64,000 nt of DNA from an uncultured Roseobacter sp. (lineage in GTDB: Bacteria > Pseudomonadota > Alphaproteobacteria > Rhodobacterales > Rhodobacteraceae). Both the position numbers and the translations under genes were made by a program. Within the stretch, counting starts at the first letter, position 1. Each line of letters starts with the position of its first letter. Below, piece by piece: positions 29,012 through 32,409 of the stretch. The DNA lies in assembly GCF_947495275.1 (NCBI RefSeq), contig NZ_CANLYL010000001.1, forward strand, positions 496,001 to 560,000. Reading direction: 5' to 3'. The notes below the pieces were generated by a model. The model ran no database searches, had not been told where the DNA came from, and saw nothing but the letters and a program-made list of their open reading frames with translations.

Positions 29012-29035
29012 GGGCGGCACTAGGCCATGCCGCCC
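29012..29035. terminator. Possible shared hairpin between convergent genes
   Basis: GGGCGGCA and its complement TGCCGCCC with an 8-base loop lie between the membrane-protein gene and mrp, overlapping the last mrp codons. No clear T-tract follows on either strand, so its action as a terminator is doubtful. Confidence 0.35.
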
Positions 29036-30090
29036 TTGATCAACCGATCAGCAATACGGGCATAGGCTTCGGCCATGGGACCTTCACCCACCGCAATGGG
29101 CGTACCGCCATCCCCGGCAAGGCGCGTTTCGAGGTCAATCGGTAGCGCCCCCAGAAGCGGCACACCCATTTTCGCGGCCTCGGCAGCGACCCCACCCTGA
29201 CCAAATATCTGATGCTCTGAGCCGCAATCGGGGCAGATAAACAAGGACATGTTTTCGATCAGCCCCAAGACAGGCGTCTTGAGCGTGGCAAACATATCAA
29301 GAGCCTTGCGCGCATCAATCAGAGCCACATCCTGAGGGGTCGAGACGACAATAGCACCGGTGAGTTCTGATTTGGTGCACAGGGTCAGTTGCACATCACC
29401 CGTGCCGGGGGGCAGGTCGACGATCAGCACGTCAAGCTCGCCCCATTCCACCTGCCCCAGCATCTGCTGCAGCGCGCCCATCAGCATCGGCCCGCGCCAG
29501 ACGACGGCCTTACCCTCCTCCAGCATGAACCCGATCGACATCAGCGTCACACCATGTGCGTGCAGCGGGATAATCGTTTTGCCATCCGGCGAAGCCGGAC
29601 GTTTGTTGACCCCCATCATGCGCGGTTGCGACGGGCCATAGATATCCGCATCCAGCAACCCTACTTTTCGGCCAGCCTTCGCCAAGGCGACGGCAAGGTT
29701 GGAGGAGACAGTGGATTTGCCCACACCGCCCTTACCTGACCCGATGGCCAGAATGCGCTTCACACCACTGGGCTTGCTGGGCCCGTCCTGCGGTTTAGGA
29801 TGACCGCCGATTTTCAGACTGGGCGGGGCTGGTTTTTCGGCGGGGCCGTGCGCCGTCAACGCAACCGACGCCTGCCCAACACCTGGCAGTTCCGATACCA
29901 ACTTCTCTGCGGCATCCCGTATCGGGCCCATTTGGCGCGCCACTTCAGGTGTCGGGGCCTCTATCACAAAGCGCACCTTATCGCCGTCAACGGTCAGCGC
30001 CCGAATCAAATCATGCGCCAGCAGGCTTTTACCGTCCGGCAACGAGATCCGTTCCAGCACGGCTTCAATTTCGGCCTTTGTCACAGACAT
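29020..30090 (-). CDS. Mrp/NBP35-family iron-sulfur carrier ATPase (ApbC type)
   Basis: A P-loop protein of 356 residues. An N-terminal MIP18-like domain (about residues 1-75) precedes the ATPase domain with a deviant Walker A loop, GSGKGGVGKSTVSSNLA, then RGPMLMGALQQ and the Walker B-like DVLIVDLPPGTGD. CPDCG near residue 265 supplies the CxxC pair that binds a bridging iron-sulfur cluster in this family. It is expected to deliver clusters to target proteins in the cytoplasm. The start at 30090 is supported by GAGGAG 9 bases upstream; the longer in-frame reading adds an unconserved head. Confidence 0.92.
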   Translation of the reverse strand: MSVTKAEIEAVLERISLPDGKSLLAHDLIRALTVDGDKVRFVIEAPTPEVARQMGPIRDAAEKLVSELPGVGQASVALTAHGPAEKPAPPSLKIGGHPKPQDGPSKPSGVKRILAIGSGKGGVGKSTVSSNLAVALAKAGRKVGLLDADIYGPSQPRMMGVNKRPASPDGKTIIPLHAHGVTLMSIGFMLEEGKAVVWRGPMLMGALQQMLGQVEWGELDVLIVDLPPGTGDVQLTLCTKSELTGAIVVSTPQDVALIDARKALDMFATLKTPVLGLIENMSLFICPDCGSEHQIFGQGGVAAEAAKMGVPLLGALPIDLETRLAGDGGTPIAVGEGPMAEAYARIADRLIKGGMA

Positions 30091-30212
30091 GCTCAATTTC
30101 TCCTCATGCGCGCCGATTTTTCCGGCATGCGCTTCCGCTAACACTAGTTAGTGCGTCCAACTGCCTAACCCTATAGCGACACGCATAAATTTACGCTAGG
30201 TCGCCCATGCAA

Positions 30213-30242
30213 TTGCTGCATAGCAGCATTGACGAGCTATCT
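30213..30242 (+). promoter_or_regulatory. Candidate RpoH-like promoter for the DUF1127 and sRNA transcript
   Basis: TTGCTG (30213-30218) and CTATCT (30237-30242) are 18 bases apart and predict a start near 30249, about 65 bases before the DUF1127 ATG. The orthologous Rhodobacter operon is known to be transcribed by RpoHI/RpoHII in stress. Similar to the candidate at 27776-27804. Confidence 0.4.
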
Positions 30243-30313
30243 ATTGTGCAGATGCAGCATAAACCTACATAACGATCACAACACGGTAACGAACGAAAGT
30301 ACGAGGCACCAAG

Positions 30314-30550
30314 ATGGCCTATTACACACAGACAAACACAGCATCCGCCAGCCTGTTCGAACGGGCTCTGGCTTTCACCGCATCGCTGCTGAACGCAGCG
30401 GCCCAACGCTACGCAACCCATCGCGTCTATCGCCAGACATATGATGAACTGGCCGGTTTGAGCGAGCGCGAACTGAATGATCTGGGCCTCAGCCGCTCGA
30501 TGATCAAAGGTTTGGCCTGGGAAACTGCGCAATCCTATACGGGCAAATAA
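30314..30550 (+). CDS. DUF1127 small RNA-binding-type protein (CcaF1-like)
   Basis: A protein of 78 residues with the DUF1127 (YjiS-like) domain in its C-terminal half: YRQTYDELAGLSERELNDLGLSRSMI. DUF1127 proteins are small, Arg-rich and stress-induced. In Rhodobacter sphaeroides one of them (CcaF1, gene RSP_6037) is co-transcribed with the CcsR small RNAs and acts in RNA maturation and turnover. The present gene has the same neighbour: an array of CCTCCTCCC hairpins begins 14 bases after its stop codon. GAGG stands about 8 bases before the ATG. Orthology with CcaF1 is inferred from this arrangement. Confidence 0.85.
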   Translation: MAYYTQTNTASASLFERALAFTASLLNAAAQRYATHRVYRQTYDELAGLSERELNDLGLSRSMIKGLAWETAQSYTGK

Positions 30551-30555
30551 GCCCG

Positions 30556-30890
30556 TCAAAGATCACACGCCCACCTCCTCCCTAGGGCGTGTGTGACCCC
30601 GCGGCGGCATCTTCTCCTCCCCTGATGTCGTCGCAAGAATTCCAGCCCGCCGAAAATTACGGGCACCTGACCGAAACTGGCCAGGGAAACGAAATCAGAC
30701 GCGCCTTTCCTCCTCCCTGGGGCGTCTGTGGTAAGGCGGTGGCATCTATCCTCCTCCCGGATGTCACCGTCCCTTTTTATTCGAGCCGCAGGCTCAATGT
30801 CATACGTCCAAGGGCCTCCTCCTCCCTGACCCGGCAGACGAACGCGAAAGGCGGCTTCCTCCTCCCGGAAGCCGCCTTTTTCTCTTTTCG
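30556..30890 (+). ncRNA. Array of six CcsR/cuckoo-type small RNA units
   Basis: A non-coding stretch with six CUCCUCCC-containing segments, most of them in the loop of a stem. Motifs are at 30574-30582, 30614-30621, 30709-30717, 30750-30758, 30815-30826 and 30858-30866. Stems: CACACGCCC/GGGCGTGTG (30564-30593); a 10-bp stem with two G-U pairs (30601-30634); CAGACGC/GCGTCTG (30696-30728); a 10-bp stem with two G-U pairs (30736-30770); a weaker two-part stem (30805-30840); and a perfect 13-bp stem (30847-30879). Rhodobacter CcsR1-4 have this motif and this place after a DUF1127 gene. The motif resembles the anti-Shine-Dalgarno sequence of 16S rRNA, so the units may bind GGAGG-like sites or proteins. 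Confidence 0.82.
30847..30888 (+). terminator. Rho-independent terminator of the sRNA array
   Basis: AAAGGCGGCTTCC and its perfect complement flank the loop TCCTCCC, followed by TTCTCTTTT. The stem-loop ends the transcript and at the same time displays the sixth copy of the CCTCCTCCC motif. Confidence 0.88.
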
Positions 30891-31140
30891 TGATCCAGAA
30901 ACAGTTTTTGAAATCGGATGACGGATCAAAATTCTCTGCTTCAATTCGATGCATTTTGATCAATTCTATGGCCCATCAACCCTGCGCTGGCGCATTCTGG
31001 GCTAAAAGCGGCTCAAATTGTCAGGGTCCATATGACCTTGGGTCAGATCATGTTATGAAATCATCAGACGGCGCGGGCTCGAAACAAACCGATTGTGGAA
31101 CCCGCTTTCCCACGTCAATCGAAAAAGACGAGCGTGTGGC

Positions 31141-32409
31141 ATGCCAGTATTCATCAGATTAACAAACGCAAACATTACCGATCCATCTTTCTGGGCAGGC
31201 CTTGATATAGGGCCCAACAGCACGATTGATGCCCGTGGCATCAATGATCGCTTCCAAATCACTCTGAACGCCAATTCAATTACGTTCACGGATACCGAAA
31301 ATGGCGGGGTCACGACATATCTGGACACTGACATCGCAGGTGGTTCATTCAGCGAATTTGTTGAATTCAGAGGCAATGATGCGAACAACAATGTCAGCGG
31401 CTCCGTCGGCCTGAACGCACGTGGCTACAGAGGTGGCTCTGGCGATGACACGTTCACTGATGATGGCTCGTTGGGCGGCACGATCCGCGGGGGACGTGGC
31501 GATGATGTCCTGATCGGGGGCACAGGTAATAACAACATCAGGGGCGGCGCAGGCGATGACATTCTGCGCGGCGGATCGGGAAACAACAATCTCAGAGGGG
31601 GTTCAGGCGATGACATTCTCTTTGCAGAAGACGGCAGTGGCAATCTGGAAGGAGAAGGCGGCGACGACACCATTTTTGCCGGACTGAACACGACATTCGT
31701 GCGTGGCGGGTCCGGCGACAATTCGTTGACGGTTCCCGCCGGCTCCACCGTCACACCGTTTTTCCCCGGATCAGACGGCGGGGAAGTGCTTCTGCCAAAT
31801 GGCAATCAGTTTACCTATCTCGACATATCGAACGTTACAGTCGCCTGTTTCGCGGCAGGCACAATGATTGATGTGCCTGGCGGAGCCACGGCCATTGAAA
31901 ACCTCGCCGTGGGTGATCTGGTTGAAACACTGGATCATGGCCCCCGCGCCATCCGTTGGATCGGGTGCCGAACCGTGCCGGGATTGGGCGGATGCACGCC
32001 CATCACCTTCATGCCCGGCAGTATTGGCAACCGGCAAAAGATCAGACTGTCGCCACAGCACCGTGTGCTATTGTCAGGCTGGCGGTGTGAGCTGATGCTT
32101 CAGACACCAGAAGTTCTGTGCAGCGCAAAGCACCTCTGTGACGGAGATCAGATTTTTGCCGCACCCTGCCAAATGGTCACGTATTTTCATTTGATGTTCG
32201 ACAAGCACGAGATCGTCTTCTCTCAAGGCGCGCGACTAGAGAGCTTTTTTGTCGGCGAATACATCTCGCGTGAGGATCGGGCGACATTCAACGAATTGGT
32301 CGCAATTTTCCCTGAGCTTGGCGCGGGCAGCGGTCGCGGGCATCGCCCAGCACGTCCCATCGTCAAGAGCTTCGAAGCAACCGCCCTTTTAGGCAATGAA
32401 ACTTACTAA
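31141..32409 (+). CDS. RTX-repeat calcium-binding protein with C-terminal Hint domain
   Basis: A protein of 422 residues. After an N-terminal part of about 110 residues comes a block of Gly/Asp/Asn-rich nonapeptide repeats of the RTX type (GGSGDD, GGRGDD, GGAGDD, GGSGDD, GEGGDD), expected to bind calcium outside the cell. From VACFAAGTMIDVPGG onward follows a Hint_2 (hedgehog/intein-type) domain with AIENLAVGDLVETLDHG and the later LSPQHRVLLSG; the Cys and His are those expected of Hint self-processing enzymes. No Sec signal is seen, in line with type I secretion by an unlinked ABC exporter. Hint domains at the end of secreted proteins are frequent in roseobacters. The start at 31141 is preferred because the upstream extension looks non-coding. 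Confidence 0.85.
   Translation: MPVFIRLTNANITDPSFWAGLDIGPNSTIDARGINDRFQITLNANSITFTDTENGGVTTYLDTDIAGGSFSEFVEFRGNDANNNVSGSVGLNARGYRGGSGDDTFTDDGSLGGTIRGGRGDDVLIGGTGNNNIRGGAGDDILRGGSGNNNLRGGSGDDILFAEDGSGNLEGEGGDDTIFAGLNTTFVRGGSGDNSLTVPAGSTVTPFFPGSDGGEVLLPNGNQFTYLDISNVTVACFAAGTMIDVPGGATAIENLAVGDLVETLDHGPRAIRWIGCRTVPGLGGCTPITFMPGSIGNRQKIRLSPQHRVLLSGWRCELMLQTPEVLCSAKHLCDGDQIFAAPCQMVTYFHLMFDKHEIVFSQGARLESFFVGEYISREDRATFNELVAIFPELGAGSGRGHRPARPIVKSFEATALLGNETY

Follow-up and report, generated by a model that had tools for sequence, protein, structure and literature searches.

Paired CTCCTCCC hairpins behind a DUF1127 gene in an uncultured Roseobacter: a probable ccaF1-CcsR-type small RNA array

Organization of the locus

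The window, a stretch of 64,000 nucleotides from the genome of an uncultured Roseobacter sp., carries on its plus strand a gene for a DUF1127 protein and, directly 3' of it, six copies of the motif CTCCTCCC spanning 30575-30866 (Table 1). Successive motif starts are 39, 96, 41, 68 and 40 nucleotides apart, the short distances delimiting three pairs, each of which forms a two-hairpin module. The first-pass annotation had placed six motif units in 335 bases downstream of a DUF1127 gene, and both statements hold, the gene on the basis of its Pfam match and the units on the basis of motif counts and shuffling.

Table 1. Coordinates of the features at the locus, numbered from the first letter of the window
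Feature	Position	Strand	Remarks
Palindrome TGCTGCATAGCAGCA, possible operator	30214-30228		Upstream of the operon
Promoter-like region	30244-30272	+	TTGTGC at 30244-30249, CCTACATAA at 30264-30272; RpoH-type by analogy
DUF1127 gene, 78 aa, CcaF1-like	30314-30550	+	Pfam PF06568, E 2.1e-13
Module 1, two hairpins	30556-30640	+	Motifs at 30575 and 30614; genus model R1 E 5.4e-9; Rfam CcsR1 match
Module 2, two hairpins	30688-30776	+	Motifs at 30710 and 30751; Rfam CcsR1 match; covariation counted here
Module 3, two hairpins	30797-30884	+	Motifs at 30819 (weak stem) and 30859; R1 E 2.4e-4; ar14 E 6e-4
Last hairpin, motif in loop, plus T-run; predicted intrinsic terminator	30846-30888	+	14 pairs, 8 of them G-C, then TCTCTTTTCG

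Over the whole window and both strands, 7 matches to CTCCTCCC were found; dinucleotide shuffles gave 1.77 on average, and none of 100 reached 7. Base shuffles of the 335-bp region contained 0.034 motifs on average and at most 2 in 20,000 trials. The 9-mer CCTCCTCCC is not enriched genome-wide, with 19 places for it and 19 for the reversed pattern, and 14 of its places lie outside the array; the special feature of the array is the local clustering.

Predicted fold and stem conservation

The predicted fold of 30551-30888 is more stable than that of any of 100 shuffled sequences (z = -5.83). In the predicted ensemble, motifs 1-4 are unpaired with probabilities of at least 0.98, the sixth 9-mer closes the stem with its first two letters and is otherwise unpaired, and motif 5 is exposed in part, with unpaired probabilities of just 0.24-0.33 for its final three letters. 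Five motifs are thus clearly placed in hairpin loops, unit 5 being weak, and no internal fold hides the motif in these five. By a strict stem count, units 1-6 have 9, 11, 9, 13, 4 and 14 pairs, where randomised flanks attain 9 pairs in 3.6% of trials; the earlier estimate of four or five units in loops was accurate by both measures. Scoring of 13 of the 14 CCTCCTCCC sites outside the array gave 3-6 pairs for 11 of them, and 9 and 13 pairs for the other two. The 13-pair case, an orphan CCTCCTCCC in a hairpin loop between ABC-transporter-like genes (L017, G000:C15:56059-56067), was rejected as a stray cuckoo RNA unit because, at all 11 further genus loci that contain the operon, the 195 nt examined lack the motif.

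Structural counts refer to 17 other genus loci and G000, the G009 array being left out. For module 2 in these 18 genomes, 96.1% of pair cells hold standard pairs, 11 of the 23 pairs are altered on both sides, and the covariation score was reached by none of 500 shuffles. Slid structures or partners pair in 31-54% of cells, in a comparison that favours the proposed structure, as it was derived from the same 18 sequences. The alignment has one weak spot, pair 17-36, which is unpaired in 9 sequences; overall, stem covariation is strong across the 18 genus genomes. Invariance of the motif in this alignment is uninformative, since the arrays were found via the motif. Hairpins were therefore also taken by pairing alone, blind to the motif, from the 400 nt after DUF1127 at the 18 genus loci: among the 87 found, 69 carry an exact CTCCTCCC in or adjoining the loop, 4 are one letter off, 1 is two letters off, and 13 are unrelated. 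A fixed loop over a free stem is the cuckoo pattern.

Covariance model searches

The Rfam CcsR1 model (RF02791; 83 positions, two hairpins, gathering cut-off 65.3 bits), run in E-value mode, aligns end to end (positions 1-83) with all three modules, at 30561-30639 (E 3e-5, 28.9 bits), 30691-30775 (E 4e-10, 45.3 bits) and 30814-30883 (E 0.018, 19.4 bits), each score lying below that cut-off. The last of these matches is near noise, as the same search returned an archaeal snoRNA family on the opposite strand at E 0.039, and module 3 is better supported by ar14 than by CcsR1. The ar14 model (RF02344) matches the three modules with 27.1, 40.6 and 29.9 bits, none of which reaches its gathering cut-off of 58.8 bits; a search at the gathering threshold returned tRNA alone. 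A genus model, R1, was built from the middle module of 18 genus genomes, so that its match to module 2 is by construction; in a search of the 64 kb, the next match after modules 1 and 3 has an E-value of 2.5. These matches to both Rfam families, although below the curated cut-offs, together with the adjoining DUF1127 gene, uphold the CcsR/cuckoo assignment made from the letters of the sequence. On account of the scores below threshold, the array is filed under the broader cuckoo/CcsR kind and not as a member of Rfam CcsR1.

Signals flanking the operon

Upstream of the DUF1127 gene, each of the 18 genus regions compared has ATTGTGCA and GCAGCA, with an element of the CCTA/TTA type after them. 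TTGTGC is conserved and has an AT-rich element 3' of it. Among 20 further upstream sequences, one of which (L087) was empty, ATTGTGCA occurs in 12; it is absent from G207, both G025 loci, G021, G027, G031a (one letter off) and two Rhizobiales records. A sigma-70 scan gave no match on the plus strand at the promoter-like region. The RpoHI/HII consensus is given as TTG at -35 and TAT at -12 in PMC10673084, and the R. sphaeroides ccaF1-CcsR operon is described as having an RpoHI/RpoHII promoter and as being processed by RNase E (PMC10253847); by analogy, the promoter-like region may be of the RpoH type. The arms of the palindrome, TGCTGCNNNGCAGCA, are intact in 15 of the 18 genus upstream regions, the remaining 3 having a single mismatch, and a genome-wide search for TGCTGCNNNGCAGCA gave 5 places and no clear regulon.

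Besides the predicted terminator at the last hairpin, the terminator search gave a weaker site of 5 pairs at 30759-30772. As shuffled sequences yield 1.4 such sites where 2 were found, the count alone is no proof. In 11 of the 17 other genus arrays, the last hairpin with an exact motif is directly followed by at least four T (read by eye).

Distribution and copy number in relatives

The paired pattern was found in 33 of 59 genomes searched, the present one included, and among these are each of the other 18 genus genomes; a few of the matches beyond the family are plain repeats or come with matches to the control pattern (G039, G043, G050). In the family, 202 of 248 genomes have it (own included) and about 47 match the reversed control (counted by eye); where a genome has just one pair, this may be a chance match. 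On the stronger strand, the median is three paired matches per family genome, with at least three in 134 and more than three in 106 of the 248; the three pairs of the window equal the median. CcsR-like arrays are common in the family, yet the Rfam CcsR1 cut-off was reached in none of the 44 genomes searched, and in that search a weak match was also obtained in one of 14 control genomes.

The 17 other genus arrays contain 3-6 exact motifs each, and larger ones occur in relatives, with 10 motifs in L024, L028 and L068, 15 in L168 and 26 in L250, which makes array copy number a tractable variable. In L250 (G207:C1:333500-338500), the 26 copies of CTCCTCCC follow a DUF1127 gene, 23 of them are unpaired in the predicted fold, and spacings of about 47, 42 and 51 recur, corresponding to a tandem three-hairpin unit of roughly 140 bp. 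The motifs of L168 (G024:C38:279000-286000) also follow a DUF1127 gene, at 37-54-nt spacing and without the two-hairpin grouping of the window. One genome, G031, has two loci with a DUF1127 gene and an array (L171 and L172; 5 and 7 motifs).

Linkage to DUF1127 was surveyed by tblastn at 49 loci in all. At all 17 other genus array loci, the DUF1127 match ends 26-80 nt 5' of the first motif. DUF1127 was further found just upstream in 7 family loci (L022, L024-L026, L028-L030), upstream in all 5 further stretches (L168-L172), and upstream in 7 named records (L068, L077, L080, L087, L106, L118, L126). No tblastn match was obtained at L020, L021, L023, L027, L046, L057, L059, L067, L069, L110, L121 and L129, several of which represent loci at record ends, short repeats or chance occurrences of two motifs; short DUF1127 proteins could also be missed by this search.

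Duplication history of the modules

Hairpins 1 and 3 are 70% identical and hairpins 2 and 4 67%, the remaining 13 hairpin pairs ranging from 50 to 63%, in support of the duplicated two-unit block proposed in the first-pass annotation. Between species, in the nine genomes with six exact motifs, mean identity is 82% for module 2 and 74% each for modules 1 and 3. Comparison inside single genomes gives 72% for modules 1 and 2, with module 3 more distant from both (58% and 61%). Modules 2 and 3 are clearly closer to their positional counterparts in other species than to their neighbours, while the margin for module 1 is small (74% against 72%). As modules resemble positional counterparts more than neighbours, the duplication of the two-hairpin block is old and predates the split of the nine species, with module 1 contributing little to this conclusion.

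Relation to known systems

By the definition taken from PMC4504443 and PMC3927594, cuckoo RNAs have two to four hairpins with a conserved loop motif and helices without sequence conservation; an association with a short DUF1127 gene is also stated for them, in a locus (CIN1) that occurs often in alphaproteobacteria (PMC10253847). The array in the window has the same make-up, with conserved CCUCCUCCC loops on non-conserved helices (unit 5 being weak) and a short DUF1127 gene next to it; compared by description, it showed no difference from the cuckoo family (Reinkensmeier and Giegerich 2015) in the features tested. With CcsR1-4 (RSs0680a-d) and ccaF1 of R. sphaeroides it shares the two-hairpin units, the CCUCCUCCC loops, the position in a DUF1127 3' UTR and the 3' terminator structure; unlike CcsR1-4, it has three units in place of four, falls short of the Rfam threshold and is known from its sequence. 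With alpha-r14/NfeR1/SmelA075 of Rhizobiales (RF02344) it shares the loop motif, the variable stems and the match to the ar14 model. Those RNAs are described as having three hairpins each, with a sigma-70 promoter for NfeR1, whereas two-hairpin modules behind DUF1127 are present here.

The first-pass annotation had counted six units as more than the four known in R. sphaeroides, a comparison that fails since hairpins were set against whole sRNAs. The transcript RS0680a is described as having two stem loops with an anti-Shine-Dalgarno motif in each (PMC3927594), and the Rfam CcsR1 model likewise has two hairpins, so that the six hairpins correspond to three CcsR equivalents. The four CcsRs of R. 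sphaeroides would then imply eight hairpins, a number derived from the published description and the Rfam model, and the comparison in terms of sRNAs would be three here to four there.

Proposed mode of action

We consider it very probable, at about 0.9, that the array is a stress-induced operon of the ccaF1-CcsR type, the 3' UTR of which would be processed to sRNAs able to base-pair with Shine-Dalgarno sequences. Regulators of this kind are already known and are widespread in the family, and the locus is largely ordinary in this respect. Stress-directed transcription would produce a DUF1127 mRNA with a 3' UTR of three two-hairpin sRNAs, ending at the last hairpin; RNase E would cleave the linkers, possibly under the influence of the DUF1127 protein, and so free the sRNAs. 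Each hairpin would expose CCUCCUCCC, which includes the anti-Shine-Dalgarno core of the ribosome's own 16S tail, and which would bind target mRNAs at their G-rich Shine-Dalgarno sites, lowering their translation or stability. The stems would hold and shield the motif, which leaves them free to change in sequence provided that they still pair. The array most likely switches off protein production during stress.

The anatomy of the locus, the conservation of its stems, the linkage to DUF1127 and the phylogenetic spread are shown by the present data, and the terminator is a prediction from sequence; the steps of transcription, sigma factor use, processing and targeting are modelled on R. sphaeroides and Sinorhizobium. 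For the R. sphaeroides CcsRs, the sources describe co-transcription with ccaF1, an RpoHI/HII promoter, processing by RNase E, dependence on Hfq and flhR as a target; for NfeR1, a review states that the silencing of some targets and the redundancy of its three motifs are genetically confirmed. Sources on these systems include PMC7866481, PMC8307010, PMC7074977, PMC10746234, PMC7143759 and PMC8625941.

Highly unlikely, in our estimate, is that the hairpins act mainly in cis, either as a structured 3' UTR that stabilises and terminates the DUF1127 mRNA or as an autoregulatory sponge for the DUF1127 protein, without targets in trans. The tight linkage to DUF1127 and the terminator-like last hairpin would fit such a role, as would the properties of R. 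sphaeroides CcaF1, which is described as an RNA-binding protein that influences CcsR maturation. Stabilisation in cis, however, needs no constant CTCCTCCC loop of the kind found in the 69 motif-blind hairpins, the stems of which change in pairs; this constancy counts against stabilisation and is compatible with a loop bound by protein. Arrays with the same loop also occur where no DUF1127 neighbour was detected, for example at L059 and L110, with the sensitivity of tblastn for short proteins to be kept in mind. Mechanical open reading frames do exist at 30589-30921 (plus) and 30556-30963 (minus), but a short protein encoded there is a negligible prospect, because the spacing of the units differs by non-multiples of three among close relatives and substitutions track base pairing. 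Equally negligible is a chance or low-complexity origin of the CT-rich repeats, for although the 9-mer is no more frequent in the genome than its reversed control and one outside site also lies in a 13-pair hairpin, local clustering, folding and covariation are far beyond shuffles, that outside motif is absent from the related loci, and the paired pattern recurs in all 18 sister species.

Candidate targets

A point in favour of the ccaF1-CcsR reading is that GGGAGGA-N3-9-ATG has 117 sites in the genome and the reversed pattern 7; at least 2 of the 117 lie antisense to the array itself. GGGAGGA is, however, a frequent form of Shine-Dalgarno sequence here, so a complement at a start codon is not by itself evidence of targeting. 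Across 19 genus genomes, GGGAGGAGG followed by ATG was found at 113 places, of which 34 are antisense in arrays (our own count), against 32 for the reversed pattern. In this genome, AAAAGGAGG precedes ATG at 5 places, and the full 9-mer shows no clear enrichment before ATG, with 4 places (one antisense in the array) against 2 reversed. Three of these four sites precede real-looking genes, for a TRAP transporter dctQ, a response regulator of 127 aa and an ABM-domain protein of 105 aa.

The perfect 9-nt complement at the dctQ start is kept in 16 of the 17 genus genomes that have the gene, no close orthologue being present in G001 and G008, and the response regulator keeps the 9-mer in 14 of 20 genus gene copies, corresponding to 13 of 19 genomes. 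The most shared upstream 9-mer reaches 17/17 at the dctQ site, compared with 7/17 at the next TRAP gene, 11/17 at the upstream ORF and 12/18 at mrp, a small baseline taken from the same loci, with stretches inside coding sequence also reaching 16/17 and 17/17. Within the leaders to which they belong, the three candidate sites are predicted to be in part base-paired, with mean unpaired values of 0.40, 0.32 and 0.44. Duplex energies of whole modules with target leaders were discarded, as they involved implausibly long duplexes, and no paper linking CcsR sRNAs to a TRAP transporter turned up in the literature library searched. The dctQ mRNA is the best candidate target in the genus, a lead with modest support. 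That dctQ is a dedicated and conserved CcsR target there, through which stress would shut down a nutrient importer by way of a 9-nt loop complement, possibly with the receiver-only response regulator as a second target, is a tentative proposal that we hold to be rather unlikely; it goes beyond known work and offers a concrete target.

Neighbouring genes

Downstream of the array, 31093-32409 on the plus strand encodes a protein that combines a Hint domain with RTX calcium-binding repeats. The gene divergent from the operon (29020-30144, minus strand) encodes an ATPase of the Mrp/NUBPL type. Its listed GTG start is probably too early, given a Shine-Dalgarno site shared by 12 of 18 genus loci that points to a better start 18 codons in.
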